DNA of 64,000 bases from Beta vulgaris subsp. vulgaris (lineage: Eukaryota; Streptophyta; Magnoliopsida; Caryophyllales; Amaranthaceae): NCBI RefSeq assembly GCF_026745355.1, contig NC_079202.1, positions 30,385,240 through 30,449,239 of the forward strand, given 5' to 3'. Made by a program: the position numbers and the translations under genes. The stretch's first letter is position 1; every line of letters begins with the position of its first letter. Of the stretch, positions 3,446-59,287 are shown one piece after another. The notes under the pieces are model-generated. The model saw only the letters and a program-made list of their open reading frames with translations, made no database searches and was not told where the DNA came from.

Positions 3446-5296
3446 TTCTTTTTGATAGTTTTAGTTAGTTTCATTAATAAGACGCCTCTTAAGGGCCCAA
3501 ATGAAAACATATTACATGAGTTTTTAAGCTAGGTTGTAGCCTGGGCATACAAGCCCTCAAAATACAAACCACATACAGAGGCATTAAAATCATATCCATG
3601 CTACAAAATTGTTAGGAGACCTTGTTTGGCTAAAGCATCAGCTACTAAGTTTGAGGAGCGATCTTTGTGGTATATTTTGGCGACGAAATCTGATTGACAA
3701 GAGCTTTTGACATAGTTGAGATGAAAGTTTAAGTTCCGTGGCCCCCATTACTTTCATTGCACCAAGTGACATCATTTTTAGATCCGACTCAAGATCGAAT
3801 GTATTGAACCGAAGAGAGTCATGGGCCAATGAGCTAGATTGATATTTCTCTATGAATAGCTAATACTTTCGCACTATCTATCTCCATAGTGGGGATGAGG
3901 CACGAAAATAGGCAGATGAAATACCCGAGATGATTTCGGAGAACCCCACCAATTGAGGATCGGTTGAGGTGGGGATTAAAGGAAGCGCCCACGTTCCATT
4001 TTAGGCGACCAAATACCGGAGGTGACCATGATGATAGATGAGGTGAGATAGGCTTGGGCACAGGGGAGGCGTTCCATAGAAAGCAACTCGGGTTCCTCTG
4101 AATATTAGTGGGAGAGTACGGGAATGAGTCACTCCACGCATTGATCCACCACCCCATCCTTAGAAGAATCAAGTCCTATAGGTTGGCCAAGGAGCTTGAT
4201 ACATAGTTGAAAACACGAGCATTTCTTTCCTTCCATAAGGACCAGATTACTGACCACACTTTCTTGAAAAAGCCATTCTTCGTCGCAATATGCCATTGAT
4301 CGAATAAATCCCTCAAGCGACTAGGGAATACCCATTTGACATTCCATAGCTCTAACCACCATTCCCATAGTTGGCGAGAGAATTGATAGTGAAGAAAAAT
4401 ATGGTCGTATTGCTCAGAGGAGTGGTTACAAAAGGTACAAAGGTCTTCAGATTCAGCAATCAGGCCCATTTTGAGAAGCTTATATCGAGTGTTAATGCAG
4501 TTGAGGAGGGTTGTCCATGTAAACACCTCAATGCGATGTGGAACAAGGCGTTTCCAAAGACCCTTGATAACATCATGGTTTTGAGGAGTAGAGGATTTCG
4601 AAACTGAGGGACTTAGTAGAGAAGTGCCCACATTTGTCAAAGGCCCATATGAGTTGGTCATCGTTGTTGGGATCTAGAGACTTGATTGAGCAGTTGATCA
4701 AGTATTAATTTCTCACTTGATGAATCCCTTCTTTGGAGTGATCTGTTCCATGAGAAGGTCCATACCCATCTATTTCTATCCCAAAATCCACAATTTTGGA
4801 TTATTGCTGCAGGAAAAGTGGTAATAGAGAGCCTGGGGAATTTAATTTTGAGAGGCTCAACCCCCAACCATAAATCGTGCCAAAAATATGAAGATGAGTC
4901 CGACCCAATTTTCTTTCGGATACCCGATACGAGCAAGGACTTCAGTGCTGGGTTGTTGATGATTACTCGACATATATTCTTCATGGGTCGCCAGATGATG
5001 GGATTGAGTGGTCCCAATGTTGAAAAAAGTGGGTATTTATATTTCAATTGGATTACTTGGCTCCATAGATGACTTGGATCTTTCAAGAAACGCCAAAGCC
5101 ATTTGAATAGGAGAGAGAGATTTCGGAACTTCAAATTCCCAATACAGGCCACCCATATTTTTCGGTAGTTGGGCGATGTCCCAGGAAACCAAAGGTAATG
5201 CTTTCTTCCCTCCCGCTCCTCCCCATAGAAAATTCCTCTGCATTTTAACTATTTTTTTCCAAGACTCCCATTGGAAGAGGGAATAATGACATGAAG
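3446..5296 (-). mobile_element. 5'-truncated LINE (non-LTR retrotransposon) with 18-bp TSD
   Basis: The element is flanked by an exact 18-bp direct repeat, TTGACACTATTTATAATT, at 3428-3445 and 5297-5314. The low-coordinate edge is T-rich, which is the A-tail of a minus-strand insertion. The other edge falls in the middle of the reverse transcriptase, so the copy is 5'-truncated, as expected of target-primed reverse transcription. Confidence 0.9.
3601..5296 (-). pseudogene. LINE ORF2 C-terminal part: reverse transcriptase end, zf-RVT, RNase H
   Basis: Read on the minus strand, this is the last third of a plant LINE polyprotein, broken by frameshifts. From 5303 to 5037 there is the end of the reverse transcriptase with the FLWGG motif typical of plant LINEs. 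From 5152 to 4658 follows the connecting region. From 4661 to 4176 lies a zf-RVT domain with CTFCNHSSEQYDHIFLHYQF (the Cys-x2-Cys ... His pattern). From 4172 to 3601 there is a plant-type RNase H fold, with GGVLRNHLG, the segment MEIDSAKVLAIHR, and near the end NLVADALAKQG. The reading frame changes several times, so no functional protein is possible. The plant LINE assignment rests on domain order and motifs; the exact clade is not determined. Confidence 0.85.
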
Positions 5297-5519: not shown

Positions 5520-5777
5520 CTCCATCCGTTTCATTTTAATCTACACACTTACACTTTTCACGCATGTCAATGTAAAATTTTGAGGACATATATTTTTAGT
5601 TTTGTATTTGTAAAAATTATAAAAAGTACATATTAATAAAATACATACTAATACGAATCTAACAAGATCCCACATGATTATGTTTTTATTCAGGTAAAAT
5701 CACAAACGAGGGTCAAAGTACAATTTGTGAATAGTGTAAAATGTCAAAGTGTGTAGATTAATATGAAACGGATGGAG
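5520..5777. mobile_element. Stowaway MITE (258 bp)
   Basis: Nearly perfect terminal inverted repeats begin CTCCATCCGTTTCATTTTAA and extend about 30 bp inward. The element is flanked by the TA dinucleotides at 5518-5519 and 5778-5779. CTCC(A/C)TCCGTTTC is the standard terminus of Tc1/mariner-derived Stowaway elements. Confidence 0.92.
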
Positions 5778-6173
5778 TATTAAATTAGCTTCTAAAGAAA
5801 ATTATATATATAATGTGTGCTATATATATATATATATTACTCAATGCTAAACTATGATGGTTAAATTTTAAATTTTACATATTAAGGAATAAGAGTAGGT
5901 TGCTAAAAGACAAGGTAGAAGCCTCCATGCAATTGAATCTCCTGTAACATCCTCTGAAATGTTGAATGGTCTAGGTTCCAATTGTCGGTATGCCCAAATA
6001 TGTTCAACCTCACGAGGTTTGGATTCACTTTCCTTCACTTGATAAGAATAGCTTCTCGATATTTGGAGTAAAAATTTTATAATAATAAATTTAAAATCAA
6101 CTAAAAATCCACAGTTTTTACACTAGAATAATTTAGGCTTCTTAAATTTATTGGCTTTTTTCGGGGATTGAGT

Positions 6174-7630: not shown

Positions 7631-7879
7631 CTACCTCTCGGTTTTTTATTGTTACACTTTCACATTTATTTACACTATTTATAAATTGCACTTTGGTCAT
7701 TATTTGCAATTTATAAGTGAAAAAAAAGTCATATGAGATCATGTTAGATTCGTCTTAATATTTATTTTATTAATATATATACTTTTATAATTTTTACAAA
7801 TACAAAATTACAAATATATAAACTTCAAATTTTATATTTACATGTGTAAAAAGTGTAAGCGTAAAACAAAAAGGGTAAG
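7631..7879. mobile_element. Stowaway MITE (249 bp), diverged
   Basis: The left end CTACCTCTCGGTTTTTTATT and the right end CAAAAAGGGTAAG are imperfect inverted repeats flanked by TA. The inner GTTACACTTTCAC pairs loosely with the GTGTAAGCGTAAAAC near the right end. Older than the Stowaway at 5520. Confidence 0.75.
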
Positions 7880-8223
7880 TAATAACACTATAATATTTCA
7901 ATTGAGACTAGCATGAACTTGCGCTTAAACTTCTTATTAGATCTAGAGGTTGGGAATAGGAAACTACTGCCAACAAATTGAACAGCTGTTTTTTTTTCCT
8001 TCTGTTTTTTCTTAAAAAAGAAAAAGAAAAAACCGTAGAAATATAATAATTTCCCCCCTTTGATCGAAGACCCAGATGGGGGTATGAAACCATATTAAAA
8101 CTAGTTACATTAATACAACTGACACCACCAACTACATAATAAATTCTCATTTCAACCGTTGAGACAAGCCAAGAAAGAGAGAGAGAGAGTATCAAACACA
8201 GCAAAGAAGAAAATAACTAATAC

Positions 8224-8643
8224 ATGGAGATGGAGGTGAATGAGGAAGAGGACGAGCAACTAAATTTTACTACTAGTCCAAATACTAATAATATTTACTA
8301 TAATATGTTCCAAGGTTCATATGATTTCATTGAAGATGTAGTAAGAGTTATTCTTAGATGCCTAGGTTTCGAAGAAGAAAACTCTTCTAATTCATCTCAA
8401 GCATGTTGTACTTCTGCCGCACCTGCACCTGTTACTACTACTACTGATGCTGCTGCTATTGGTACGACTACGACTACTCCAGATTTAGGTGGTTCGGATG
8501 GTGGTGATGCTGATGATTCAGCTGAAATAGCAGATAGTGGTGGACAAGAGAGTTCTCCTGATATCGGTGGCGGTGGAGGTGGTGATGATGATGCGGGCAC
8601 AGTAGCAGATCCACCAGGAGCTGATACGCCTTCCGTTGGAGCT
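8224..8643 (+). CDS. Possible PROPEP-like small acidic protein, first exon
   Basis: The ATG at 8224 follows a GA-rich leader and opens an acidic frame. Residues 1-10 are Glu-rich. Residues around 35-52 form an amphipathic helix containing DVVRVILRCLGFEEE. The rest is a low-complexity Ser/Thr/Gly/Asp-rich region. The helix pattern (hydrophobic residues followed by (I/L)L(R/K)CLG(F/L)) is a hallmark of plant elicitor peptide precursors (PROPEPs). In that family the active peptide is at the C-terminus; I could not find it here. A plausible splice donor lies after codon 140 (GCT|GTATGC); read through it, the frame runs on to a hydrophobic tail and stops at 8713-8715. The next 170 bp look intronic and lead into a MITE at 8811, so the gene may be spliced to a distant exon or truncated. 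The PROPEP assignment is inference from one motif; a lineage-specific orphan frame is the alternative. Confidence 0.4.
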
Positions 8644-8810
8644 GTATGCCCTCCCCTCCCTTTCTTTGTCTATTTATTAGTCTTATATGCATGTCATATA
8701 TGTGTTGATATTTAAAATATATAATTGGTAGACAAAACGGCTTTATAATTTATTTCATCCTAAAAACAAAGAAATTTATTTTAATAATTATTTAATATCA
8801 ATTACTTTAA

Positions 8811-20860: not shown

Positions 20861-22790
20861 CACTAGTAGAAAAAGGTCGATTTGCGTCGGGCCTGGGACC
20901 CCTATTTGCGTTGGACTTGGGTCCGACGGCACAGGTCTCGACGCAAATGTCCCGGGATCGATATGCGTCATATGCGGAAACGACGCAGATCTTTAGCTAT
21001 TTGCGTCGCACGTTGTATACGGTGCGACGCAAATTGGTCTCCCCAGTTGTGCATCTGAGTGATTTGCGTCGCACCTAGGGCTACATGCGACGCAAATTGG
21101 TCTCCCCAGCCCAACACATAGCTTAATGTGCGTCGCACATCGCCTTCGGTGCGACGCAGATGAGTGATTTGCGTCGCACCTAAGGCTATATGCGACGCAA
21201 ATTGCAAATTTTTTTTTAAAAAATTTAGTTTTATGAACCAGGAATCAGGTTGTTGCAAACTTGCAATAAAGATTTTGGTTTCTTCACAAAAAAATCGTAG
21301 ATTTGTAATAATAAATTACAGAAAATAAAGAAAAAGAGATAATTACATAAAAAAGAATACATAAATTACAGAAAATCAATTAAATTAAATTACAGAAATT
21401 CAAAAAAGAAAATTATAGAAAAATAAAGATTACAAAATGTGGAAGCGAGTGAATGACTTGTACTTTGCAATGCGCAAGGAGGACAAAGCTTCACCGGAAT
21501 GTATGTGAAAGCAATTGATGCAAACATACAAGTAACTTCCAAATATCAAAGACACAACTGGGGTTGAGAACACCCAGTAATAAAGGAAAACAGAGGCATA
21601 GTATATCACAGCATAACCTCTGGACAGTGACTGTATCCCATTCTTGCAAATGTTGCTCCTTGTGACAGCCATCACCTATTTTTTCCCACAGATTAAGGCC
21701 GAGTTTTCCAATGACTCGAGGGAGATGACTTCGAGGAGAACAATTTTCAGATCTGAAAATGAACATAAGAATTTCAGAACTAAAAGTCAAGAAAATTCTA
21801 AATCTGAAAATAAACCTTAAAATACCAAAAAAGTAAACAAGAAAAATCAAATATAAAAAATAAAAATAAAAACGAAAGGCTATTATTTTCAATTGCATGA
21901 ACTATGTGCTTTTTTATTTTTCAAATGCCAAAATAGTAAAAAAAAAAAAATCAGATGTTAAATATTTTATTTTTCAGATCTGAAATGAAAAAACGAATTT
22001 TCAGATTTGAAAACTAAAATAGAAATCATATCTAAAAATTAAGAAACGAAATTGAAAACGCTGATGAACGAAATCTAAGAATCGAAAAGTGCTGAAAACG
22101 AGAAACGGAAAATCAGAACTTTCGTTCGTTCGCTCGCCGGAAAACGGGAAAGGTCTTACTCATGAATGTTTTTCGTTCTTTCGCTGAAGGTCTTACTTTC
22201 GTTCGCTCGCCGGAAAACGGAAAAGGAGCTCGATAAATTTCAGTGGATGCGAAGTTGAGAGCTTAAACTTGAGAAGATACGATTTGTTCGAATTTTGATG
22301 TAGTTGGTGGTGTTTTGGGGGGATTTGAATGAAATGAAAGGAAGAGGCCTTTGAATTGAAGAACCAGAGAATTGGAGAGAGATAGTGGGGTTTGAAGAGA
22401 AATGAAAGGAACGGCTGAGGCTGAGAGGGTAGGTGGGGTTTGAAAGGATGAGGCGCAAAGGGAGTTAGTAATTTGTGTAGCACACCCCTAAGGTGCGACG
22501 CACAAATCTCTTTTGCAACGTACCCAACCCTTGGTGCGATGCAGATAGCTCTATCTTTTTACCCACCAAGATGCAGCAATATGCGTTGCACCTTGATTGT
22601 GTACGACGCAAAATGGCCATATACGTCGCACCTTAGGTGTGTGCGACGCATATTGGTAGTAGCTTGTGGCTGGGCCAAGGTATTTTGCGTCGTATGCAAA
22701 GGTGCATGCGACGCAAATAGTGCTTGTGCGTCGTTTCCGCTTTTGTGCGACGCACTTGAGGGGACGCAAATCGACCTTTTTCTACTAGTG
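20861..22790. mobile_element. Inner CACTA element (1930 bp) with TTC target duplication
   Basis: Long inverted repeats start CACTAGTAGAAAAAGGTCGA and end TCGACCTTTTTCTACTAGTG, flanked by TTC at 20858-20860 and 22791-22793. Subterminal regions carry many GCGTCGCAC/GTGCGACGC motifs arranged as hairpins about 60 bp apart (20995-21200 and 22480-22760). No transposase, so it is non-autonomous. The central part (21430-21690) holds a possible captured host gene fragment. It lies inside the outer CACTA element and is therefore younger. Confidence 0.93.
21430..21690 (-). pseudogene. Captured host gene fragment, calcineurin-like phosphoesterase C-terminus-like
   Basis: Minus-strand frame 21675-21430 reads like the end of a multi-pass membrane protein. 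It has hydrophobic segments around VFLYYWVFSTPVVSLIFGSY, then GEALSSLRIAKYKSFTRFHI. The latter strongly recalls the conserved (F/L)SSLRI..YK.FTRFHI segment of plant calcineurin-like metallophosphoesterase membrane proteins. The frame has no start context of its own and sits between the subterminal repeats of a CACTA element, as expected of a transduplicated exon. The family call is from memory of the motif and needs a database search; the captured-fragment interpretation is inference. Confidence 0.45.
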
Positions 22791-35429: not shown

Positions 35430-37540
35430 ACAAGTACTATGCTAGGAAATATGAGTACTTGGGGTTTTAATGACAACAATAACTTTTAAATATTTTTAAA
35501 GGGGATTTCAAGTATTTTAAAGTTGCTGGAATTTATTTGTAGTATTGATTTTCAATTCTATTGGTTGTTTTAGGCAGAAATCACTGTGTAGGCGATTTTT
35601 CAAGTGTGAAATGTGGCATAGAAATTTGTCTACACAAGGTACATACATACCTATGTGTTGTGTGATGTAGTATCATGATTTTAGGAAAGAAAGTTATGTA
35701 GTATCATGTATAGGAACTTTGTGAGTTCATATATGATTTCTATTATGATTGAATTTTACATGTTTTATGCTTGTGTGCGAACATGTTAAGTATAAGATTA
35801 ATATTATGTTTGTATGGAATATTGATGCAAGCATGTTGGTTGGGAGCTTTATTTATTAATCCACATGGGGGAATTAATATATTTATTGAGTTGGATCATG
35901 ATTGAATCGTGTGTTTCGTTATGTTATTATTTTTACTACTTTATGAGGGTTGTGAGCCTTATTTGGTAAGTTGATAAATTATGCCTTTGAAAGGTAAGTC
36001 GGTTGTTGGCTAGGTTCAACAAATAAGAAGGATTGAGATAAAGAAGGAATTAATCTTGGGTTGTAAGTTGTATGATCACTTATTTAATCCTAAGATAAAA
36101 AGGAGTAAAGTTGTGAATGTTTGATTATGTGTCATAACGAGTAATAATTGTCATATCATGTAAAGTGAAACTTGGATAGTAATAAACTTTAGACTAGTGC
36201 ACGTCTGAAGTTAGACAATCAGGAGTTGGGGTACTTGGTGAGCGAGCCATGACTTTTTCTGGAAATTGGATTGATCACCGTTCCTATTTTTATTAAAAGG
36301 TTCCTCAATATCGCAAGTCATTAAATTATGGAATATGGAGTTGCGCCCGTATTTCATCTTCCTAGGTGAAGGCTGGTTTTTAGATAAGACAACCCAGTCC
36401 AATAACTATTCCATTAAAGTAATAAAAAGATGGTTAAAGTTTAGTTCAGTAAAAGTTATCTGCAGATTGTTAGATTATTATGTTATTTATTTATCCCTGC
36501 CTATTATATATTAGTATCATGTTAGGAATGTTTATGTATTATTATGTAGTACTCAGCTTTGCTGATTACGTGCTTTATTTGTGTGTGTTGATCATAGCTT
36601 TGTGAATGTTTGATTATTTAGTGCATTGACATCTATAGGTGTGTAGATGTTGCATCATGGGGATGTGGGAATGCAGAGCTTGTGTGGCAAATTGATTTAA
36701 CTATTGTTTTAGTAGATACATTATATTTAAGTTTGGTTTGAAGTTAACATTAATAGTGTTGTTTGGTTTTAAAGTTAATTTGCTTATTTATTATATTTCA
36801 ATTCTAAAGTTTAGTTATATGTTTTCCGCTGAAAAATTCTGAATAAGCCAATGCGTTATCACACGGGCGAAAATGCTTTGATGATTCTCTAAGTTTTATA
36901 TTGAAAAGTATTTTTGGAAAAGAGAGAATTATCGAGGTGTTACAAAGTGGTATATGAGAGCTTAAGGTTATTTTCAAAAAATTTAGGCGCGTAACTTGCT
37001 AGTTATTTAAATAAACTTCTTAGAATTGAGCTCTTACTTATTCGTTGTATTTAAGTTAATTTGTATTCGAAAAATGAGGTTTGAAAAACTTTTGAGGTTT
37101 GGAAGAAAAAAAATTTCAATTGTTCGAATTATTTTTTTTTTCCGAAATTTTATAATTCCAATTTCTTTTTTTTTTTTTGGTCGAAATTTTTTTTCGGAAA
37201 TTTATTGAGTTTGAATTTTCTATTAATTTTGTTTATTAGTCGAAAATTATTTTAAGTTTTACGTGTTGTATTGCGATAATGGGTAGTATAGGAATGGCAT
37301 ATAGCATAGAAATACTATATGCCTGCATTACATACTTAGTTCAGCATGATTATATTTTTCTTCCCTACTAACTGTTATATTCTTGTGCCGACGTTGTTAG
37401 TATAACTCCTTATTGATTATTGTTGGGAATTGCGTTTAGGGAGAGTACAAAGTATATCTATTGGAATAGTTTATTTGTTGTAGATCCCTAACCATGTCGG
37501 TCAGGCAAGTTAAAAGAGTAGGAAGTTATACAAACCCAAC
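35430..37540 (+). mobile_element. Tekay-like Ty3/gypsy 5' LTR remnant, primer site and gag start
   Basis: An LTR ends at GAGGTGTTACA (36944), the usual end of Tekay/Del chromovirus LTRs. A degraded methionine-tRNA primer site TGGTATATGAGAGC (36948-36961) follows, then a leader with T-rich runs and an ATG at 37494 that starts a gag-like frame (MSVRQVKRVGSYTNP). The LTR start could not be fixed. The frame is cut at 37541 by the gene-fragment carrier and gag sequence resumes after 42640. Confidence 0.6.
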
Positions 37541-38190
37541 TACTACAAAAAAGGGCAACGATAACACTCCTAAATTAACTCTTATTTTATCAACTGTTAT
37601 GTAAAGTCTAAATTTAACGTTTTAACAAAAGAACTGTTATCTTAGCTTGTATAGAAAATATTTCACTTAACACTTATCTTAATGTGTGTTATCTTTGCTA
37701 TGAAATTAGTTTATTATGTTTTATTTTATTCTTTTATGGAAATATGGTGAATTTTTATTAATAATAAAAATTCACTTAAAATAATTATGTTGGAAAAAAA
37801 ACCGTTTTATTTTCAATTACTTTTAGGAACAAGCTTTTTACTCCCCTTAAAAAAAAAGAACAAACTTTCTACTTCGTAAATCCTTTTTCTTTTATTTTCA
37901 ATTTGATGTAACTGAACCAAGTTGTGGGTCTGTTCTCGCTCAACGCTTCTCTCAACTCCGATCTCCACCTCCACCTCTCTCTCTCGGTGGCGGGGCCAGT
38001 AAAAATGAACGAAAACAACACGCTGCCAGACGCGTGAAGGTGAGGAAGAGAGATAAAAGATTTTGAAATAAACACGCTGAAAGGAAGAGAGAGACTGAGG
38101 AAGAGAGAAATTGAAAAAGAAACCCTAAGCTAGGCTGCGGAGAAACGACGACAGTCGACAGCACATTCACATTCGCCGGAGACGACGATG

Positions 38191-38390
38191 ACGAGCAGTG
38201 AGGAAGAGGAACGAAGTCACGAACTTCGAACTTCGAACGAAGGAGTCAGGAGCGGTGAGGAAGCCACGAAGCGACAGAGTCAGGAGGCGAAGGAGGCGAA
38301 GCGACGCCGCCACCCCACTGCCCACATCCATTCGCCGTCGTGGACCTCCCGAGACGCCCAGCACTCACTCACTGTCACTCCAGTCAGTCC
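38191..38390 (+). pseudogene. Captured first-exon-like fragment, unknown gene
   Basis: GC-rich sequence starts with an ATG at 38191 (MTSSEEEERSHELRTSNEGV) and ends at a strong donor CAGTCC|GTAAGT at 38391, after a leader containing AAACCCTAAGC. It resembles a 5' exon of a host gene followed by an AT-rich intron. I do not recognise the protein; a leader is equally possible. Confidence 0.4.
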
Positions 38391-38942
38391 GTAAGTTTTC
38401 TAAAACCTAAGTTTTAGTTTTAGTTTTAGTTTTAATTTTTTTAAAAGGTAATATTCACATTGTTTGGTTGTGAATTATGATACTTGTGAAATATGAATTT
38501 GTGATTATGGATTTATGGTTGTTGATTTGGAATTGGTCATGAACTCATGTTTTGGAAATTGTTAGTTTACAATTTCGAATTTGTAATTAGGATATTGTAA
38601 ATATGAGTTGATTTGTATTGAACTCATTTAGTTCCCAGTGATAGTATAATTGTATCAGGGTATTGATTTGTTAGACTACAGTTTTGTTTTCAAGCTCATT
38701 GTATGCAGTCTTTTGCCATATGAAAATATCTTTGCCTACTACAGTTGACTGCTTAGGATTGATATTGCACACATTTAGGCATCCTCTGGCCTCGCCAATG
38801 CTGAAATTCATCTTTGATTGTCTTGCCAATGCCTTGGTTGCTGCGTCTTACTCTTACGCTCCTTAAGTAATTGGTTGGTGGTGTAAAATTAAATCATTAA
38901 TTGTGTATTTCAGGTTCTTCTGCCAAGTTCTTCTGTTTTCAG

Positions 38943-39074
38943 GAGTGCACTTGGCATCAGTAACCACGTTTTGGTACTTGGCTTCTCTATTTCAAACCAT
39001 AGTTGTTTCCAATCTTGCGTCCGTTTATTTCTTACTGTTTGCCTTTATATTCAGCGGATTCATAATCCCGAAAT
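38943..39074 (+). pseudogene. Captured ABCG (PDR-type) transporter exon
   Basis: Between an acceptor TTTTCAG and a donor GTAAGT, the frame reads SVTTFWYLASLFQTIVVSNL, then a hydrophobic run, then FIFSGFIIPK. HLASV..F(R/W)(F/Y)LASLFQT and (F/G)GF(I/V)IPK are the transmembrane segments of the C-terminal half of full-size ABCG/PDR ABC transporters. The neighbouring transporter exons are absent, so this is one exon moved alone. Confidence 0.65.
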
Positions 39075-39149
39075 GTAAGTATACTAATGAAGCTTTTACT
39101 TGATAGGACCCTCATAGTATCATAAAATTGTATTTTCCCTATTCTATAG

Positions 39150-39251
39150 AGGAATCCCTAGTTGATGGAACGTATGCTGGAGACAACACTCATCGTAGTC
39201 CTTTACCAAGTCCCAATAGCCCATTAGATGCGAAGGCTCTTGGATCAATGA
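39150..39251 (+). pseudogene. Captured exon-like fragment, unknown
   Basis: After acceptor TTCTATAG, an open frame reads EESLVDGTYAGDNTHRSPLP and continues SPNSPLDAKALGSM to a donor-like GTATGT at 39252. A proline/serine-rich linker of a host protein; family not recognised. Confidence 0.4.
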
Positions 39252-39787
39252 GTATGTGCCATGTTTTGCAATCAACAAATATAATGAGCTTAATCTTCAA
39301 TTAAATTTGCTTTTTCGTCTTTTGACTTTTTTTAGTATTGTTTCTATCTTTTGCATCTACCAGATTCTCGCCATTTGGTCGTGCAGTGGTGGTAATAACA
39401 CGAGAAATGCTTTTTTCTTTGTGGGGTAATAAAGTTGAATCAGCTGCAATGAACTTGTTCAGTTTTGGTATTCGCTGATTTGTATTCTTGATAGTTTCCG
39501 TTAGTTGTCTTTTGTTCTAACGAGCAAGATTGTTTGTTCTTATATTCCTAGGAGTATTTGCTAATTTAGCACTTCTTGTCTTAGAGGTAAATTGTGGGAG
39601 AGATGTTATGTTTTGTCGTTATAACTGTAATGGGAGCTCTGAGCATTGATAACAGATGGAAGCTAATACGTAGAACAATCTACATTTGAGGAGATTATGT
39701 TGAGATGGCTTTCGATGCTTTGTGATATATTATTAGTCAAATCTATATTAACCCGAGTAAATTCTGAATGCGAGTCATACTAGCCAA

Positions 39788-39924
39788 GCTTGTTTGCCAA
39801 GCTTCTTGAAAAGAAGAGCATTGAGGACCTTATCATGAATGTTGGTGCTGGTGGTGGTGCCGCTCCCGCTACTGCTGGAGATGCTGCTGCTGCCCCAGCT
39901 GCTACCGAGAAAGAAGAGAAAAAG
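39788..39924 (+). pseudogene. Captured 60S acidic ribosomal protein P1 exon
   Basis: The frame reads [20 protein letters not shown], then [20 protein letters not shown] and KEEKK, ending at a donor-like GTTATA. (L/I)xxLLEGK(D/S)(L/I)xDLIxNVGxGGGA followed by an Ala-rich hinge and EKKEEKK is the signature of P1. The N-terminal half and the terminal SDDDMGFSLFD-type tail are missing. Normal P1 acts in the ribosomal stalk; this piece cannot. Confidence 0.82.
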
Positions 39925-40104
39925 GTTATAACTTTATTTTTTTGTTCTTCGATTCCAAAATATGATGTTTATACTTCTCAAATTTTGTCTGTTAAACTGG
40001 TTGATTTTTGTTTCTTAAGACATTTACATCTATACGATTTTTCATCACTGGACCCTCTTGACCGCGTCAATCGTTTCTTTTCATCTTCCATCTTATCTGC
40101 CTGA

Positions 40105-40855
40105 CAGAAAGGTCCATATTTACTTTCAAGCAGAGTGTCTGCTCTTGTCACAAGAAGACCACCTGGCATATCATTCTCTTCTGCAGATATTGATACTGAA
40201 AGTGAGATCTTATCTTGTCTCCCAGTTTGATACAACTCATGACATCTCAGCTTTTGCCAATTCAAGATAGAATCTTTAATTCTCATTCTTTTGGGTTGTT
40301 TGGTTTAAATGACTTGATTAATTCTTTGATTTCCTCCTCAGATTGATAATAGACCCATTGCAAGCAAGTTGTATAGGAACTATCACGTTCATAAACAAAT
40401 GGACAAGGAGCACTTGAACCCTCGAAGCTCATATGATTAATAGTTGTACAAGGAGCAAGACTTCCAAAATATACACTCTCACTCTTCATTTTTGTTTGAC
40501 TCAGGTGCTTTGTTGTAGCTTTCAAGGCCATAGTATCCACAATCACCCAAGGATGTGCACCAGGCTGGACTGAGGCCCAATACAATCGACCAGAAGAATC
40601 ACTACCCAGGAACTCCATGCGCATAGAAGACTTCATAAGCTGTGACTCTGCATTTGCAATGGACTGTTGAAGGACGCACAACTCCTTCTGCACAGCATTT
40701 AGCTCCAGATTGGAACTTTGCAACTCATTTGAAGTTGAGCAAGAAACAGTTTCAGCTGCCCCAATGTTGAAAAGACATGAGGAAACAATATCAGGAGGAA
40801 CCTGAGGAGGAGAGTGATCAACATCGGATTCAGCTTGTTCGATGATTAGACTGTC
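40105..40855 (-). pseudogene. Captured MBD9-like fragment, antisense to the other fragments
   Basis: On the minus strand the frame runs from IIEQAESDVDHSPPQVPPDI through QQSIANAESQLMKSSMRMEF, then LGSDSSGRLYW, HPWVIVDTMALK, CLQWVYYQSEEEIKELI. After a stop (TGA at about 40285) and a shifted frame comes DSILNWQKLRCHELYQTGRQ, ending TRADTLLESKYGPF. RREFLGRDSDGRLYW...W..Y.S..EI.ELI...(R/K)ERELK.SI..WQ is the arrangement in methyl-CpG-binding-domain protein MBD9 homologues. The stop and frameshift show decay. It is oriented opposite to the ribosomal and ABCG pieces, so it was captured separately or inverted. Confidence 0.7.
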
Positions 40856-41434
40856 TGCTAGGCTTGTGCCATTTTCTTACAGTGGTAAATACCTATCTTT
40901 CATTGTTGATGATCTTGATCACATATTACTGCTAAAGCATAACTACTTTTGTTCCTTTATCTTCCTACCATTCCTCTTGAATCTTGACTGTGGAGTGTGG
41001 ATCATTCAATGCTTATATCTTTCTTTCATTATTTTCATGATTGGCTGAGAAGCTGTAAAAGTGATTTCTGCAAAAAAATATATGGAGAAGATTGGTCTTG
41101 ATTCAGCATCATTAAGCCGCCATGTCAGAATTGCAAAGGATTTCTCCTTTTTAAATACTATTTTGACATGGCTATAAAACTGAGCAACTTTTGCTGATTT
41201 TTGCTTCATCTTCATATTTATTTTCTACAAGAAATAATAGAAATAAAGGGTAAGAATCAAAATGTGGGAAATATTGGTTATTTTCACTTCATTTTCATTT
41301 ATCCCATTTTCAAGAAATAATTGAAACAAAGGTAAAAGAAAAGAGCAACTTTGCTAATTTATGTTTCATCTTTTTGAATATTTTTGGAGTAGATAAACTG
41401 TAAAATAATGATATGGTTAATTTGGGTGTTTTAG

Positions 41435-42019
41435 GACAAATAATTCAAGCAGTTTCTCAACTTGATGAACATCTCAAGTTCATATGATTCAGCAAGTAAT
41501 ATTGGATTTTATGGAAGAGTTGAGAGCAATGGATTAGATAAATCAAGAGGAAGATATGATTATGAATCTTCAATTGGAGTTACTGATGATTACAGTCAAG
41601 TATTATATTCTGTCCCTCCCACAATTTCTGAAGAGGATTCACAAATGCGAGGAACTCAATCTGCTACTTCCAAATATGATCAGTTCGGAGAGGCAATACC
41701 GGTGATGGGTGTGGAGCGAAACGAGCATCGATCAAACCACCGGCCTAAGGCGTACCAAGAGTTTTTGGATGAAGTTCAGAACCACAAACAAAGAGCTGAA
41801 TTTGATGCGTTGAGGAACACTACATATACTCATCTGCTTAGAAAGTATGTCTGTCTCTTTACTGTGTATGATATGCAGTATGATTTGTATGAATAATATA
41901 ATAAAAAGACTGATTAATTGGTCAGACTGGCAGAGAAGGAAGAAGCCATTGATGAGTGGGAGTCAAGCCGTAGGAGAAAGGCAGAGTTTCAGCTGGACAA
42001 GCTTGAGGCCATAGGCTAG
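41435..42019 (+). pseudogene. Captured two-exon gene 3' end, unknown product
   Basis: After acceptor TTTTAG (41434), exon 1 runs to 41844. From 41462 its open frame reads NISSSYDSASNIGFYGRVES ... KAYQEFLDEVQNHKQRAEFD, then TYTHLLRK. A 81-bp intron with GTATGT and GTCAG follows. Exon 2 (41926-42019) gives LAEKEEAIDEWESSRRRKAE and ends FQLDKLEAIG before a TAG stop. The join keeps the frame. The C-terminal charged helix suggests a coiled coil. Upstream of 41462 a frame break is possible. Family not recognised; retention of an intact intron indicates capture of genomic DNA. Confidence 0.5.
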
Positions 42020-42642
42020 ATTTGATCTTGTATATGATTTAGATTAATATTGATAGGTATATATAGTAGTTTATTTTAAAAGTTTAGAATTATGAATATT
42101 ATTTGAATTATTTTGTGATATAAAATTTTTTGAAAGTTTGGAATATCATATTCAATTTATTGGTTGTAAGATCTTATGAGTTGAGTATTAATTATATAAT
42201 AGATACAAGTATTGTACTATCTTGTAAAAAAAAAAGAGAATTGTACTGTACGACATTGTTGTGATGCGTGCTGCAACGCCTACTGCCAATATATGGATGA
42301 AATGATAATTTGATTTTTTTTTTTAAAAAAAAATACCATAGATAACAGTTTTAGGTAATATATGTTTTATATATTATAGGAAAACATAACAGTTATTCAA
42401 GATAAGTGTTAAATTTTCCTTCTTTCAATTTGTCATATAAATAGAAAACATAACACTTATTTACGAAATGAGTTATCTAGTGGCATAACATGTATTGTAA
42501 ATGACTGTTATGTTTTCTCTGGCAAACATAACACTTTCGTCAGGTGTTATGTTTAATTTACATTACATTGACTTGGATAACACCTCAAAACTGTAATGTA
42601 AAGCCTTATTTAACAGTTATGTTTGCCCTATTTTGTAGTAGT

Positions 42643-44348
<1,706 letters not shown>

Positions 44349-47177: not shown

Positions 47178-49967
47178 ATTCTTGGGATGAACTCGTTAAG
47201 TCTCTACAAGGCTAATATAGACTATGAGGTTCAGAAGGTAGTGTTGAGAAACCCTTTGGAAAAATTGACCTCCTATAGACGTTTTGGGAAGCCTAAGAAC
47301 TTTAAGGTTATCTCTGCGATGCAAGTGAGGAAGTTGATGAAAAAAGGGTGTGAATTATTTTTCTGTAATATGCAGAATGTGAGTAAGGAAGTTGGGGTGA
47401 ATATCGAGGATGTCCCAATTGTGAACTAGTTTATGGATGTATTTCTGAGTGAGATTTCGGGTACCCCGCCTGCGAGAGCTATTGAGTTTACCATATACTT
47501 AGTTCCTAGAGCTGCACTTATATCTAAGGCACCTTATAGAATGGCACCACCTGAGATGAGTGAGTTGAAGATGCGATTACAGGAGTTGTTGGAGAAGGGC
47601 TGTATTAGGCCTAGTGCATCACCTTGGGGAGCTTCTGTAGTTTTTGTGAAGAAAAAAAATGGGAGTATGAGGTTGTGTATTGACTATAAGGAACTGAACA
47701 ATTTAACCATCAAGAACAAGTATCCTTTGCCTAGAATAGATGACCTATTCGATTAATTAAATGGAGCGAATGTGTTCTCGAAGATTGATTTACGTTCGGG
47801 GTATCACTAGTTGAGAGTAGCTGATGAGGATGTATCTAAGACTGCATTGGGATGCGTTATGGTCATTGTGAGTTCACTAAATTGCCGTTTGGGTTAACCA
47901 ATGCTCCTGCCATATTTATGGATTTGATGAATAGGATATTCCATGAGTTCTTAGATAAGTTTGTTGTGGTATTCATTGATGATATTCTAATGTATTCGAG
48001 CAATGAAGTAGAGCATGATGAGCACTTGACAATTATGTTGGAGACGCTTAGGAAGAATCCATTATATGCCAAGTTCTCTAAGTGTGAGTTTCGTTTGTAG
48101 AAGGTAGCGTTTTGGGTCACTATGTGTCTAAGGAAGGAGTCTTTGTAGATTCTGCTAAGATTCAAGATGTGAGTGAGTGGCCAACTCCAAAGAATGTGTC
48201 AGATATTAGAAGTTTCCTAGGTCTAGCTGGCTATTATAGAAGATTTATGAGATATTTCTCGAAGATAGCGAGGCCCATGACCAACCTGATGAAGAAAGAT
48301 TCAAAATTTGAGTAGAGTGAAAAGTGTGAAGAAGCCTTTTAGATTTTGAAGGAACGTTTAACCTCCGCACCTGTTTTTTTGAGGTGTATAGTGATGCTTC
48401 GAAGAATGATTTGGGATATATGTTACAACAAAATGGGAAGGTAATTGCATATGCGTCGCGTCAGTTAAAACCTTATGAGGCTAATTACCCTACCCACGAT
48501 CTAGAGTTAGCTGCCATAGTGTTTGCATTGAACATTTGGAGACATAACCTCTATGGGGCAACTTGTAAGATATTTACTGATCATAAGAGTTTGAAATACA
48601 TTTTCACCCAAAAAGACCTGAATATGAGGCAAAGGAGATGGTTGGAATTGATTAAGGATTATGACCTAGACATCCAGTATCATGAGGGGAAAGCAAATGT
48701 AGTTGTCGATGCCTTGAGTAGAAAGTTAAGCCATAACGTGAGTGCCTTGATAGTCCCTGAGGAGTTGTGTCGAGATATGCAAAGGTTGAGCCTAGAAATT
48801 TTAAATCCTAGGAAAAGTGAGGCAATACTAAGCGCTTTATCTTTGGGTTGTCAGATTTCGATGAGATCAAAGAGGATCAAGTTAGGGATGAGCACCTAGA
48901 TAAGATTAAGGAGAAAATGAAGCAAAATAGGAAAGCCGATTTTAAGATCCATGATGATGGAAGTTTGAGGTTTAAGAGAAGATGGTGTGTACCACAAAAG
49001 TGTAATAACCTTAAGAGACGTCTTATGGATGAGGGGCATAACGCTCCATATTCTGTGCACCTTGGGAATGACAAGTTGTACAAAGACCTTAAGGGTATCT
49101 ATTAGTGGCTAAACATGAAGTGTGAGGTAGCTGAATATGTGTCTAAGTGCCTAACCTGTCAGAAAGTTAAGATAGATCATAATAGACCCATGGGGAAGGT
49201 TCAATCCTTAAAGGTTCGTGGATGGAAGTGGGATTCTATTTCTATGGATTTTGTGGCTGGTTTGCCTAGGACGAGGAGTGGTAATGATGCTATTTGAATT
49301 GTTGTGGATAGACTGACAAAGTCCGGCGTATTTATACCCTATTAAGGAGACATGGAAAAGAAGCAACTTGGAAAGACGTACATTAGGCATGTGGTGAGAT
49401 TGCATGGGGTTCCAAGGGATATCAATTCTGATCGTGATTCGAGGTTTCTCTCAAAATTTTGGAAAAAGGTCCAATTAAATCTTGGGACAACATTAAAAAT
49501 GAGTACAACCTTTCACCCTACGACTGATGGCCAGACTGAGAGGACTAACCAAACCATGGATCATGATATGTTGAGAGCGTGTGCTATTGATTTCCAAGGT
49601 AGTTAGGAGAACTTATTAGACTTGATCGAATTTTCTTATAACAATAGCTATCATTCGAGGCACTATATGGACGAAAGTGTAGAAATCCCATTTGTTGGAA
49701 TGATTTTAGCGAAAATATAGTCTTGGGGACATAATTTTTTGAGGAAACCGTTAGGAATGTCAAACTGATTTAGGCTAGAATTCAAGCTACTCAAGATAGG
49801 GAAAAGAGTTATGCCGACTTAAAACGACGCAAGGATAAGTTTGCAGTAGGTGATAAAGTGTTTTTGAAAGTATCACCAACTAACGGCGTCATGAGATTTG
49901 GGAAAAAGGGCAAGTTAAGGGTCAAATATGTAGGCCCATATGAAATTTTGGAGCAAATTGGAATTGT
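47178..49967 (+). pseudogene. Tekay-like Ty3/gypsy pol: protease end, RT, RNase H, integrase
   Basis: The order is protease end to linker (47187-47429, ending with VNIEDVPIVN), then reverse transcriptase. RT motifs are [78 protein letters not shown] and the catalytic box [13 protein letters not shown] (IDD at about 47975). RNase H follows ([54 protein letters not shown]). The integrase has the zinc segment CLTCQKVKIDHNRP, WKWDSISMDFVAGLPRTRSG, HPTTDGQTERTNQTM and the end GKLRVKYVGPYEILEQIG. The frame is broken by at least seven stops and several shifts. It ends at 49967, before any chromodomain, where an antisense LTR starts. Confidence 0.93.
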
Positions 49968-55170: not shown

Positions 55171-58100
55171 TAGAGCTGGCCACGGGCCGTGCTGGGCCTG
55201 ACCACGGGCCAGGCCCGCGGGCTGAAGTGGAATACGGGTCGGGCCAGGCCCGTGGCCCATCAAACTCGTGTCGTGCCGGGCTGGGCTGAAAATGTGGGAA
55301 ACTTGTCCATGGCACGGCACGGCCCACGGGGCTGGCGGGCCGGGCTCTTGCTCACCGCGGGCCTGGTCCGAAAATCACAGTTTTTGAAAAAAAAAAAAAA
55401 ATGCTCGCGGGCCTTGTGCGTAAAAGGAATATTACTAAGGAGAATTGTACAGATTATTATGCAGTACCTGCCTTTTGTTTACTTGGCAAGTTCACAGTTA
55501 TCACTTATCACAGCTTTTATATATGTGGGCCCTTTTTTCTTTTGTTTTCCTCTGAGCCTTTGAATTCTGAACTGTGGGATGTGATTGAGACTTATATTTT
55601 TTAGTGTCCTTAATGTATGATTCACCTATCTTAACGTCACTTTCAACTTTTTTACCCTTTTTTTGAACTTTTCGATAGATATTTTATTGGGGGTTATGTA
55701 TCTGCCATTAGTTTCCTATATGATGTGGTTGTGGCAATTTTATGGAAGTAGTTTTTTTTTTTTAGGTGTTTTGTTTTTTTAGGTCTACTTCACTACTTGT
55801 CTAGCATTGTTAGATTTGTTGTCACTTTACTAGAATTATATTGTAAGCTTTATTTCTCTCTCTCTTTCTTTTTTTAAGTTTATTTTTTATTTTATATATT
55901 TGTATTTATAAGTTAATTATAGTGAAAAACAAAAAAGTAAAAAGTAAAGAAAATTTATTTACGGTAACATTGTAACTTGAAAAATACCTCAAATTTATTA
56001 TTGAACTCTTGATAATATTGAAAAGTAACAAAATAACTAGATGTCTAGATTCTTAACAACTAAAGACATTACAAACAATAAGAAAGTTACATTTCATCAC
56101 TCATCATCATCATCATCTATTTCTTGTTCAAGATCGTCGGCTAGTTGAATTGATTGAGAACTATTAGATCCAGAAGCCGACGTGCCTTCATCATTATCAT
56201 TTAGTACATACGACTTATCTTGAGATCGATCTTCGGCATCTAACCAATCTTTGAAAGAGACACACATTTCAAGAGTTTCGGGTTTTAAACTTGATCTTCT
56301 ATCATCTAGCACTCTTCCTGATGCGCTAAAAGCTCGTTCAGATGCAACTGATGAGACTTGGATAGCAAAAATATCACGAGCCATCACCGCCAAAATTGGA
56401 TGCTTTGTGCTTTGTCCTTTCCACCACTCCAGTAGGTCAAGTCCAAACTTTTCTTCATCATCCATACCTTTCATGAAATCATAGCTTAGATACATTTGTA
56501 ATTCAGAAACATCACTTTGAGCTCTTCGGGATGATTCACTACCAGAAAATTTAGACATCATATTAGCAGCTTGTGCAAGTAAACCTTTTGACCGTTTACT
56601 TACGCTCTTGGATGATTGAGAAGGAGCAAATCGAGTAACTGTTCCATATTTATTTTCATAAATTCTATATAGTTCGAAAAATCGAGTGGTCACATTAGTT
56701 TTAAAAGCTCCAACATCACTTCCAAGTAGCATGCATTGAAAATAAATATCAAGTAACAAGAAAGTACCATCATATTTTTGCCTTGGATCTAAAATAGAAG
56801 CAAAAACATAAAAAATAGGAAGCTCCGTATAATATCTGCGCCATTTCACCTCCATTGCTAGAAGATAGTCATCATAAGTTTCTTCGCCACGATGCTCATA
56901 AAAAAGTTGAGCAAGTAAACATGTATTACTAAGAAAAGATTGAGAACATGGATTATAAACAGAAGAAAAGCAATGGGTCATGCTATATAACAATTGTAAG
57001 AAGTTCATATACTTTTCACAATTATTCCAATCACTTTCTAATAAAGCCATTTGTGGAAATTTTTGATTGAAAAAAATCGTTATTGGAATTCTATACTCGA
57101 TTGCCCTGGCCTACTCAACATGTCGTAAGTGGAGTTCCACCTAGTCGGACAATCGGCTTTGAGTTTTACCACTTTTAGCTTTTGCTGACGCAGAAATGCT
57201 TTCCACTCCTGAAGTCTCATAGAATAACTGTTTAATAGAAAGAATTGCAGTTCTAATTTTCTCATAAAAAGGACCAATAGCAGTAGTTCCATCTCTCACA
57301 CATAAATTTAAAACATGACAAATGCATCTAATGTGAAGTGCTTCTCCATCTAAAATTAAATCAGGTAATTGTTGTTTGACCATGTTTGCACTATATGTCA
57401 TAGATGTTGCATTATCAAAAGTCATGGACATAATTCTAGTCCTAAGACCATACTCATCAATAGCTTGCATTAGATGATGAGCAATGTTAAGACCAGTGTG
57501 GGGGTATTCTAACATTCTAAAATGAATAATACGCTTTTGCAACAACTATTCATCATCTATCCAATGACAAGTCACACACAAGTAATGTAGTCCATAACCA
57601 CCATCCCATGCATCCGCAGTTAAAGAAACTCTACAAGGAAGATTACTTAATAGTTGAATTAACCTTTCTTTATGCTCTAAATAGTTTCTCATCGCAGATG
57701 AACGAGCCATTTTTCTAGAAATTGGCTTGTGTTGAGGTTGTAGTGCTTTGTTGATGTAATTATTAAAAGGTTCATTCTCAGCAAAAAGAAAAGGTTGTTC
57801 AGCATGCACAAGCATTTGCGCGAGTTCGTCCCTATCCCTCTGATAATTGTAAGTGAAACCGTGTGGATGATACTGAGAGATTTTGGGTTGTGCTGGATCG
57901 CTAGAGGGTTCACCACATTTTTTGGAGTGTCTAACTAAGTGACCCGTCCCTTGTTTAGATAAAGCAGATAAAATCATGTTACATGTTTTGCACTTAGCTT
58001 TGCTTTCATCCTTATTTAATAAAAAGTAGCCCCAAACCTTACTTTTTCGATGTTTCTTAGTTGCCATTTCCTCTTCCGTACACCACTCATCTAATAGATT

Positions 58101-59287
58101 TGGGATTTCTGAGAAGGGCCTATCCACTGATTGACCACTAGATCCGGATCCCATGCTAGGCATTGTTGATGAAAATTGAGGTATAGTTTAGGTGGAATGG
58201 TAAGAACTAGGATCTTGAGGTGTGCCATATCCGTAATAGGGTTGGTATGCGTTTGGTTGAAATCCCGGAGGGGGATTCATATCGAATGCAGAAAACGGTT
58301 GGTTCATTTGGCTAAACTGATTGAATCCCATGTTTTGAGGTGGCGGCATAGACATGTTTGGGTTTTGTTGGTCACTAGAAGTAGCTATGTGTTTGGCTTT
58401 TTTGGAGGAGATATTTGGTTTTGATGCCATTGCAGAAACAAATTCACAAAAACAAAATATACTTAATTAAAATTAACAAAAATAACACTAATTAATAAAA
58501 AAGGAATCAATTAACAAAAATAATTAATAGCTAATAACGTACTAACAATATAATTGTAAATAGAATAATGATTAGTAATAATAAATTAAAAATAATTGAA
58601 ACAAAGTTGAGTTAGATCTTACAACCAATATAGTAGAAATAGAATTAGGAAATGTGAAAATCGCAACTTCAAATGTTTCTTGAATGATCTCCAAAAAATC
58701 TTCACCCAAAGAACAAGTAATTTTGTAGTAGTACTATTAATAATTTTAAGAGCAAAGTGTTAATGTATAATTGAGAGATTTTGTTATTTAGGAATTGAGA
58801 ACTTTGATAATTCTAATTGAGGAGATTGAAATAATACAGAAGAATGAATGATGAGATGAGAGTGATGAGTTGTTTGGAAAAAATAATGAAATTTTGGTGT
58901 ATTTATAGAGAAAGGAAAAAAATTAGCCGTTGTAAATATATCTGTTGTAAAATTAGTTGTTGCTTGTTGCTTGGTGCATATGGATTATTTATGGACGTTG
59001 AAAATCTGAAAATTTCACTCTTGCAATACATTGTGTATTTGTGACATTGTACTTAATATGTGTTGTCATTGTCACAATAACACAATGTCATCAATTATCA
59101 TCACTTTACCTGCACAATTTGCAGCAAAAGGAGAGTTATTGAGAGTACTTCAACTCAACGGCACACATAAGTCTGCGAGCCTCTGTTTCGTGGGCCCAGC
59201 CCACCGGTCAGCCCACGGGCCGGGCCGGGCCATGAACGGGCCGAGCTCGGGCAGCCCGCGGGCCAGCCCGGCCCATGGCCACCACTA
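55171..59287 (-). mobile_element. Full-length hAT transposon (4.1 kb)
   Basis: The ends TAGAGCTGGCCACGGGCC and GGCCCATGGCCACCACTA (read inward TAGTGGTGGCCATGGGCC) are inverted repeats. Both continue into GC-rich GGGCC/GGCCC subterminal regions (55171-55380 and 59190-59287). Flanks ATCCAAAC and AATTTCAAAC resemble each other but are not a clean 8-bp duplication. It encodes a broken transposase on the minus strand (56097-58430). The termini match those of the 12501-13153 MITE. Confidence 0.85.
56097..58430 (-). pseudogene. hAT transposase (BED zinc finger to C-terminal dimerisation domain), broken
   Basis: The start at 58430 opens a Gln/Pro-rich N-terminus (MASKPNISSKKAKHIATSSD). An in-frame TAA lies near 58191. 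From 58163 come a BED-type zinc finger (CKTCNMILSALSKQGTGHLV, then RHSKKC) and the start of the transposase fold (LTADAWDGGYGLHYLCVTCH). A second in-frame stop follows WIDDE at 57546-57548. The 57545-57141 frame has GLNIAHHLMQAIDEYGLRTR and CICHVLNLCVRDG. Then the reading shifts to another frame for DCPTRWNSTYDML (57292-57080) and back. The last frame, 57050-56097, holds FASILDPRQKYD and the hAT dimerisation domain (SSVASERAFSASGRVLDDRR, SSLKPETLEMC) and an acidic tail. Two stops plus two frame changes mean no functional protein. Both stops fit a C-to-T change on one strand. Confidence 0.93.

Follow-up and report, generated by a model that had tools for sequence, protein, structure and literature searches.

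The question raised by this locus is whether about 5.1 kb of DNA, at 37540-42641 of the 64-kb window (the window being the whole stretch that was analysed), is a single mobile element that has picked up pieces of host genes. Its ends form an inverted repeat, with clusters of AACTGTTA-type motifs just inside both. We consider it highly probable that this is an old, non-autonomous terminal inverted repeat (TIR) DNA transposon of the Pack-TYPE / Tgm-Express kind, carrying unrelated host gene pieces.

The inverted repeat is 27 nt long, with 24 of the 27 nucleotides paired between 37539-37565 and 42616-42642. The left TIR, CTACTACAAAAAAGGGCAACGATAAC, is placed at 37540-37565 on the plus strand and the right TIR at 42616-42641 on the minus strand, on the basis of this pairing and of pattern and inverted-pair scans. 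The pattern CTACTACAAAAWAGGGCAA, with up to three mismatches, has two matches in the 64-kb window, both at these ends, against 0.06 expected; it was taken from these same ends, and therefore shows uniqueness only. The inverted-pair scan of the window (10-nt exact seed, at least 21/24, arms 1-10 kb apart) gave 16 overlapping matches, of which the 15 listed sit at three places including this TIR pair; 20 shuffles gave 2 matches in total. Neither the CTACTACAAAAWAGGGCAA pattern nor the 15 inverted pairs listed revealed the termini anywhere else in the window, and a literature search with the terminus string found no transposon paper by title.

Just inside the TIRs, a scan for AACA[G/C]TTA with up to one mismatch finds 7 matches at 4 sites within 161 bp at the left end (an unstranded cluster at 37566-37700), and 10 matches at 7 sites within 302 bp at the right end (an unstranded cluster at 42340-42615, with matches up to 42619). 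The densest 300-bp stretches hold 8 matches, the left one including a site outside the element. The left-end cluster alone has 7, a maximum equalled in 2 of 30 shuffles. Bidirectional subterminal repeats are present, clearly so at the right end, the left end alone being borderline. ACTGTTA occurs twice at the left, four times at the right, never in the interior of the element, and once outside it (37371). The inverted termini with mirrored subterminal motifs described in the earlier note are thus borne out, by the pairing and by the clusters at both ends. Over the whole window ATAACASTTA is not enriched (23 against 17.8 expected, a number reached in 13 of 100 shuffles). About 160 bp beyond the left end of the element there is one further motif site.

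The element is CACTA-like, yet it has neither 5'-CACTA ends nor a target duplication. The ends (37532-37547 and 42634-42649) contain no exact 3-4-bp match, and no target-site duplication of 3-11 bp was accepted there; the sole 5-11-bp flank match with up to one mismatch, TACTA/TAGTA, belongs to the inverted repeat itself. An 8-bp duplication of the hAT type and a 9-11-bp duplication of the Mutator type are likewise absent from these ends at up to one mismatch. If the ends are set at 37543/42638 they are flanked by TA, as in a Tc1/mariner duplication, which was noticed by eye and at two bases is weak.

It is nevertheless somewhat more probable than improbable that this is a true CACTA (En/Spm) member with a mutated terminal pentamer and target duplication. 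The inner terminus ACTACAAAA resembles CACTACAA, which is given as an Arabidopsis CACTA TIR in PMC8903248; the bidirectional subterminal motifs fit CACTA; and gene fragments are reported in CACTA elements (PMC1947982, PMC8903248). However, both ends read CTACTACAAAA, so that the identical departure from 5'-CACTA appears twice, and the element has neither a 3-nt duplication nor the 5 nt that PMC8903248 gives for CACTA in rice and maize. A further point against is that a canonical CACTA element, with CACTA ends and TTC/TTC flanks, lies about 15 kb away in the same window, at 20861-22790.

The host pieces have been further analysed. An exon of a PDR3-like (full-size ABCG) transporter is located at 38914-39074 on the plus strand, with acceptor and donor both intact. 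It matches Beta vulgaris PDR3-like isoform X2 with 51/54 identical residues by tblastn and 46/49 by BLASTP, and with an E value of 9.2e-15 in a further search; a PDB search with it gave no match. Only residues 652-705 of this parent are found in the window (tblastn, E<=0.01). The upstream edge of the match is at 38912-38914, and not at 38943 as had been proposed; a second proposed junction, at 39788, fails similarly, the P1 match described below reaching upstream to about 39760, and those at 38390, 39150 and 41435 are possible.

Two of the six pieces claimed in the earlier note are without sequence support. The first, at 37920-38390 on the plus strand, resembles a 5'UTR or first exon, being GC-rich (54%, against 29-30% in the 2-kb flanks) and ending in a GTAAGT donor; its 67-aa ORF from the ATG at 38188 (38188-38388) has no Pfam or PDB match. 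The second is an exon-like open stretch of 34 aa at 39150-39251 (plus strand), which may be due to chance. It has no Pfam or PDB match, and the matches in the PDR search cover the PDR part only. Exon-like units, defined as open stretches of 90-200 nt between an AG and a strong donor, average 1.4 for each 5.1 kb of a single strand across the window, compared with 4 on the plus strand of the element. Given this chance rate, no exon is proven by its splice sites alone.

The next piece comes from the gene for 60S acidic ribosomal protein P1. An exon at 39757-39924 on the plus strand, whose upstream limit is approximate, is recognised by Pfam (1.4e-9) and by comparison with wheat P1 (4v7e; 4.3e-12, or 1.6e-16 over a longer range with the stop read through). 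This stop codon, at 39781-39783, stands where relatives have Trp. The exon had been described as single, and as an exon it is confirmed, but a second one follows: beyond a GT..AG intron at 39925-40794 (plus strand), the last P1 exon at 40795-40849 (plus strand) encodes EEPEEESD, and then, in the next frame, GFSLFD, D and a stop. The two exons spliced together match P1 at 5.1e-15, extending to EESD. Four P1 N-terminal motifs are absent from the 64-kb window.

Within this intron, on the minus strand as previously noted, is a frameshifted piece of a WSD-domain (MBD9-like) gene, at 40020-40740 with both limits approximate. The ORF at 40286-40876 scores 8e-5 for Pfam WSD, which is below the cut-off (23.2 against 25.4 bits). 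The piece agrees at 106/118 residues with the sugar-beet protein BVRB_6g144700, in which the WSD domain is above the cut-off (27.2 bits). The similarity is not confined to WSD: the stretch 39778-40636 (minus strand) is collinear with BVRB_6g144700 through the WSD piece and, in antisense, the P1 intron and the P1 exon. At the protein level, sugar beet is shown to have the same P1/WSD arrangement. The position of the last P1 exon at 40795 places the WSD piece inside the P1 intron, and for the same reason it may be the host's own P1 locus that is matched in beet. This sugar-beet locus is either the source locus of P1, with WSD already in its intron, or another copy of the element.

Since the same junction of WSD, P1 intron and P1 exon is found in BVRB_6g144700, P1 and WSD may be one capture. 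The possibility that they formed one host locus and were taken up together, BVRB_6g144700 being an antisense ORF of the host P1 locus and no copy of the element, is a variant of the transposon reading and compatible with it, and we regard it as evenly balanced. It is favoured by the placing of WSD between two P1 exons, by the recurrence of the junction in sugar beet, and by the Pro of BVRB_6g144700 opposite the P1 stop of the window, a residue compatible with Trp on the P1 strand. Nothing speaks directly against it, although the same picture would be expected from a sister copy of the element. The annotated BVRB_6g144700 is suggested to be an antisense reading over the P1 exon and the WSD-bearing intron rather than a gene.

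Of the three exon-like pieces initially listed as unknown, the two without support are those already described, and the third is remorin. Its exon is at 41435-41844 on the plus strand, starting at 41435 or 41450, and matches Bienertia Remorin 4.1 (E 7.8e-16). With the start at 41435, but not at 41450, the exon takes in a stop at 41441-41443. Removal of a retained GT-AG intron of 81 bp (41845-41925, plus strand) joins the remorin frame to the next exon, at 41926-42019 (plus strand), giving 81/160 residues for the spliced comparison. This second exon is truncated, the homology stopping at LDKLE and being followed by AIG and a stop. Remorin_C is below the Pfam cut-off (18.2 against 29.7), and only residues 101-240 of the remorin relative are found in the window (tblastn, E<=0.01).

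Four of the six proposed pieces therefore stand (PDR/ABCG, P1, WSD and remorin), and GT-AG introns in P1 and remorin support the view that they were captured as genomic DNA. Six independent captures are not supported; the pieces come from at least three source loci and four genes. The earlier note would have been contradicted by parent genes lying contiguous elsewhere in the same order, and this applies in part: WSD lies inside the P1 intron, with the same arrangement in sugar beet, so that these two were perhaps captured together. PDR and remorin are separate (tblastn, E<=0.01).

It is improbable that the termini are two different insertions of one family, with host sequence or a duplicated block between them. 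Such an origin would suit the published capture route in which neighbours are mobilised jointly (PMC8903248), the motif site beyond the left end and the absence of a target duplication. Against it, the 64-kb window has just two terminus matches, and these are inverted as a single element requires; the exons next to the PDR and remorin pieces are also missing.

The transposon reading accords with the Pack-TYPE features found here: paired TIRs, captured host coding DNA, and no transposase among the ORFs of at least 150 aa. Against it stand the missing target duplication and 5'-CACTA, the left motif cluster that shuffles can equal, the motif site beyond the left end, and the WSD and Remorin_C scores below the Pfam cut-off. 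There are only two such ORFs in the element, both host pieces, in agreement with what had been claimed. Rfam at its gathering threshold gives no matches. A transposase made elsewhere would act in trans on the ends and subterminal motifs. Between the termini are genomic pieces, with introns, of a PDR transporter, of a P1 gene with the reversed WSD/MBD9-like piece in its last intron, and of remorin. They were probably acquired step by step, when neighbouring copies moved together or were excised aberrantly, along the lines of the published Pack-CACTA model. This copy has decayed, the signs of decay being the P1 stop codon, the frameshift in the last P1 exon and the frame changes in the WSD piece. 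The exons might be spliced into read-through transcripts, as in soybean.

No functional product is indicated, and a chimeric protein is not supported because the reading frames of both P1 and WSD are disrupted. Among six exon joins that were translated, those of the first stretch with the PDR exon give ORFs of 121-130 aa, and none of these is an in-frame PDR-remorin fusion, although the remorin and P1 parts are invalid as a test, remorin having been set at 41437-41845 and the last P1 exon left out. It is very unlikely that this is an exon-shuffling cassette of Beta and its relatives that is still transcribed and belongs to an undescribed TIR family with CTACTACAAAA ends, the reversed WSD piece in the captured P1 intron producing antisense RNA against an MBD9-like chromatin gene and so trimming it. 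A chimeric host gene that has been domesticated and is kept by selection is also very improbable: the ATG at 38188 is open through the GTAAGT donor into the PDR exon frame (the 121-aa ORF, in one join) and every supported piece except WSD shares one strand, but one join in three is in frame by chance, a stop follows immediately when the PDR exon is joined to 39150, and neither P1 nor WSD has an intact frame.

The closest parallel is Tgm-Express1 of soybean, described in PMC1947982 as a 5.7-kb element with CACTA-family inverted-repeat ends and five fragments of unrelated host genes, exons and introns included. It differs in that it sits in intron 2 of F3H, where chimeric splicing was proven by RT-PCR, whereas the element described here has other ends and broken frames, and no target duplication was found for it. 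Pack-TYPE and Pack-CACTA elements, according to PMC8903248, are TIR elements that likewise lack autonomy and hold coding DNA, which in maize often derives from two or more loci. Their annotation is there reported to rest on TIRs, target duplication and clusters of copies; here there is no duplication, and one copy was judged. The Jozin CACTA elements of Chenopodium (PMC8978399) share the chenopod/amaranth host and subterminal repeats, and captured gene fragments are reported for them. Their TIRs are given as starting with CACTAGTAGAAA and variants, which 20861-22790 resembles and the gene carrier does not. The gene carrier is a known kind of gene shuffler and no new kind of system, and a clear multi-fragment carrier in the beet lineage. 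Should its termini mark a family, copies at successive stages of capture might be seen in Beta assemblies, making stepwise and joint capture directly testable.

Four of the six host pieces claimed for the element at 37540–42641 are supported by sequence: exons of an ABCG/PDR transporter and of ribosomal P1, a WSD-domain piece and a remorin. As delimited here the element is 5102 bp long, and its inverted termini (37539–37565 and 42616–42642) pair at 24 of 27 nt, which bears out the earlier note. With up to 3 mismatches the terminus pattern, itself taken from these two ends, matches at two places only in the window, both of them the ends of the element (0.06 expected). A scan of the window for inverted pairs (at least 21/24, spacing 1–10 kb, low complexity removed) gave 16 overlapping matches, and the 15 listed fall at three places, one being the element's pair; 20 shuffles gave 2 matches in total. 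Four of the 15 come from a further inverted-repeat pair at about 5540–5780 and 7640–7880, about 2 kb apart; the two align imperfectly over a long stretch and may mark another TIR element or a fold-back element.

Motifs of the type AACA[G/C]TTA cluster inside the left terminus (7 matches at 4 places) and inside the right (10 matches at 7 places). Of the bidirectional subterminal repeats described previously, the right cluster is clear and stands out; the left cluster alone was equalled as a maximum in 2 of 30 shuffles. ACTGTTA occurs twice at the left end, four times at the right end, nowhere in the interior of the element and once outside it, at 37371. This sole outside occurrence is part of an exact copy of the subterminal motif, ATAACAGTTA, at 37369–37378, about 160 bp beyond the left terminus. 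ATAACASTTA is not enriched over the whole window.

The full-size ABCG/PDR transporter exon (38914–39074) is identical at 51 of 54 residues to residues 652–705 of the Beta vulgaris PDR3-like isoform X2; its other five matches have 48–50% identity (E 0.013–0.097), and no further part of the PDR3-like protein was detected in the window at E ≤ 0.01. The exon begins at 38914 and not at the junction proposed earlier, 38943. For 37920–38390 (54% GC) and 39150–39251, also counted as captured host pieces, homology searches gave no support. Splicing the PDR exon to 39150 leads to an immediate stop; in one exon join, an ORF of 121 aa that opens at 38188 could run across the PDR exon.

The ribosomal P1 exon (39757–39924) matches Pfam at 1.4e-9 and wheat P1 (4v7e) at 4.3e-12; extending the range upstream and reading through a stop at 39781–39783, which aligns with a Trp of wheat P1, gives 1.6e-16. 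In the last P1 exon (40795–40849), EEPEEESD continues the frame of ...KEEKK once the GT-AG intron between them is removed; compared with wheat P1, the joined sequence scores 5.1e-15 and aligns as far as EESD. Plant P1 proteins generally end in GFSLFD. Here GFSLFD, one residue and a stop sit in the next frame after EEPEEESD, and the last exon is therefore frameshifted. The six-frame translation of the window contains a single EEPEEESD and a single GFSLFD.

Inside the P1 intron lies a reversed WSD-domain match (Pfam 8e-5, below the cut-off). The reverse orientation noted earlier holds; "MBD9-like" is the earlier note's own name for the piece. The sugar-beet protein BVRB_6g144700 (288 aa) matches the WSD piece at 106 of 118 residues; it is collinear with 40636–39778, extending beyond the WSD piece in antisense orientation over the intron and exon of P1, and along it the window changes frame three times (rows examined, 39700–40900). 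Going by this protein, the WSD-beside-P1 arrangement therefore exists in sugar beet. Opposite the window's P1 stop the protein has Pro, permitting Trp on the P1 strand. Two readings of the beet locus stand: it may be a host P1 gene with the WSD piece in its intron, and P1 and WSD would therefore be one capture, or it may be a sister copy of the element. Under both, the beet entry looks like an antisense ORF. The best matches suggest Beta or a near relative as the source of the window.

The remorin piece (41435–42019; two exons, 81-bp intron) matches Bienertia Remorin 4.1 at 7.8e-16, with 81/160 when spliced, and Remorin_C at 0.0022, below the cut-off. It has 1 match among 26 candidates, and a Beta remorin is absent from its matches.

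The window also holds hAT transposase remains (56100–58187, minus strand) in two open stretches, a BED zinc finger (57549–58187) and a hAT dimerisation domain (56100–57110), and retroelement pieces at 48330–48896 (plus; reverse-transcriptase-linked RNase H, 2.6e-30) and 4179–4673 (minus; zf-RVT, 3.5e-14). A 163-aa open stretch at 8224–8712 (plus) matches Pep1_7, plant elicitor peptide precursors, at 5.6e-4, below the cut-off (20.8 vs 26.2 bits).

In layout and in its inner terminus ACTACAAAA the element resembles CACTA. Its two ends, however, are CTACTACAAAA, and a search for a target duplication there gave none; we therefore describe it as a putative CACTA-like Pack-TYPE element, its superfamily unproven. 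A canonical non-autonomous CACTA element is present at 20861–22790 (1930 bp). Its ends agree over 28 terminal bases, CACTAGTAGAAAAAGGTCGATTTGCGTC, its flanks are TTC/TTC, and it carries dense bidirectional TTTGCGTCG repeats; the ends are like the Jozin type of PMC8978399. Published work already describes Pack-TYPE capture from several loci (PMC8903248) and joint mobilisation of neighbours (PMC8903248, PMC13317346); among open-licence papers found by beet-directed searches, titles and abstract openings describe no such element in Beta. The stop in the first P1 exon, the frameshift in the last and the frame changes in WSD are marks of decay, and a coding role is unlikely. By analogy with soybean Tgm-Express1, for which PMC1947982 describes splicing into read-through transcripts, the element's exons might possibly be spliced in the same way.
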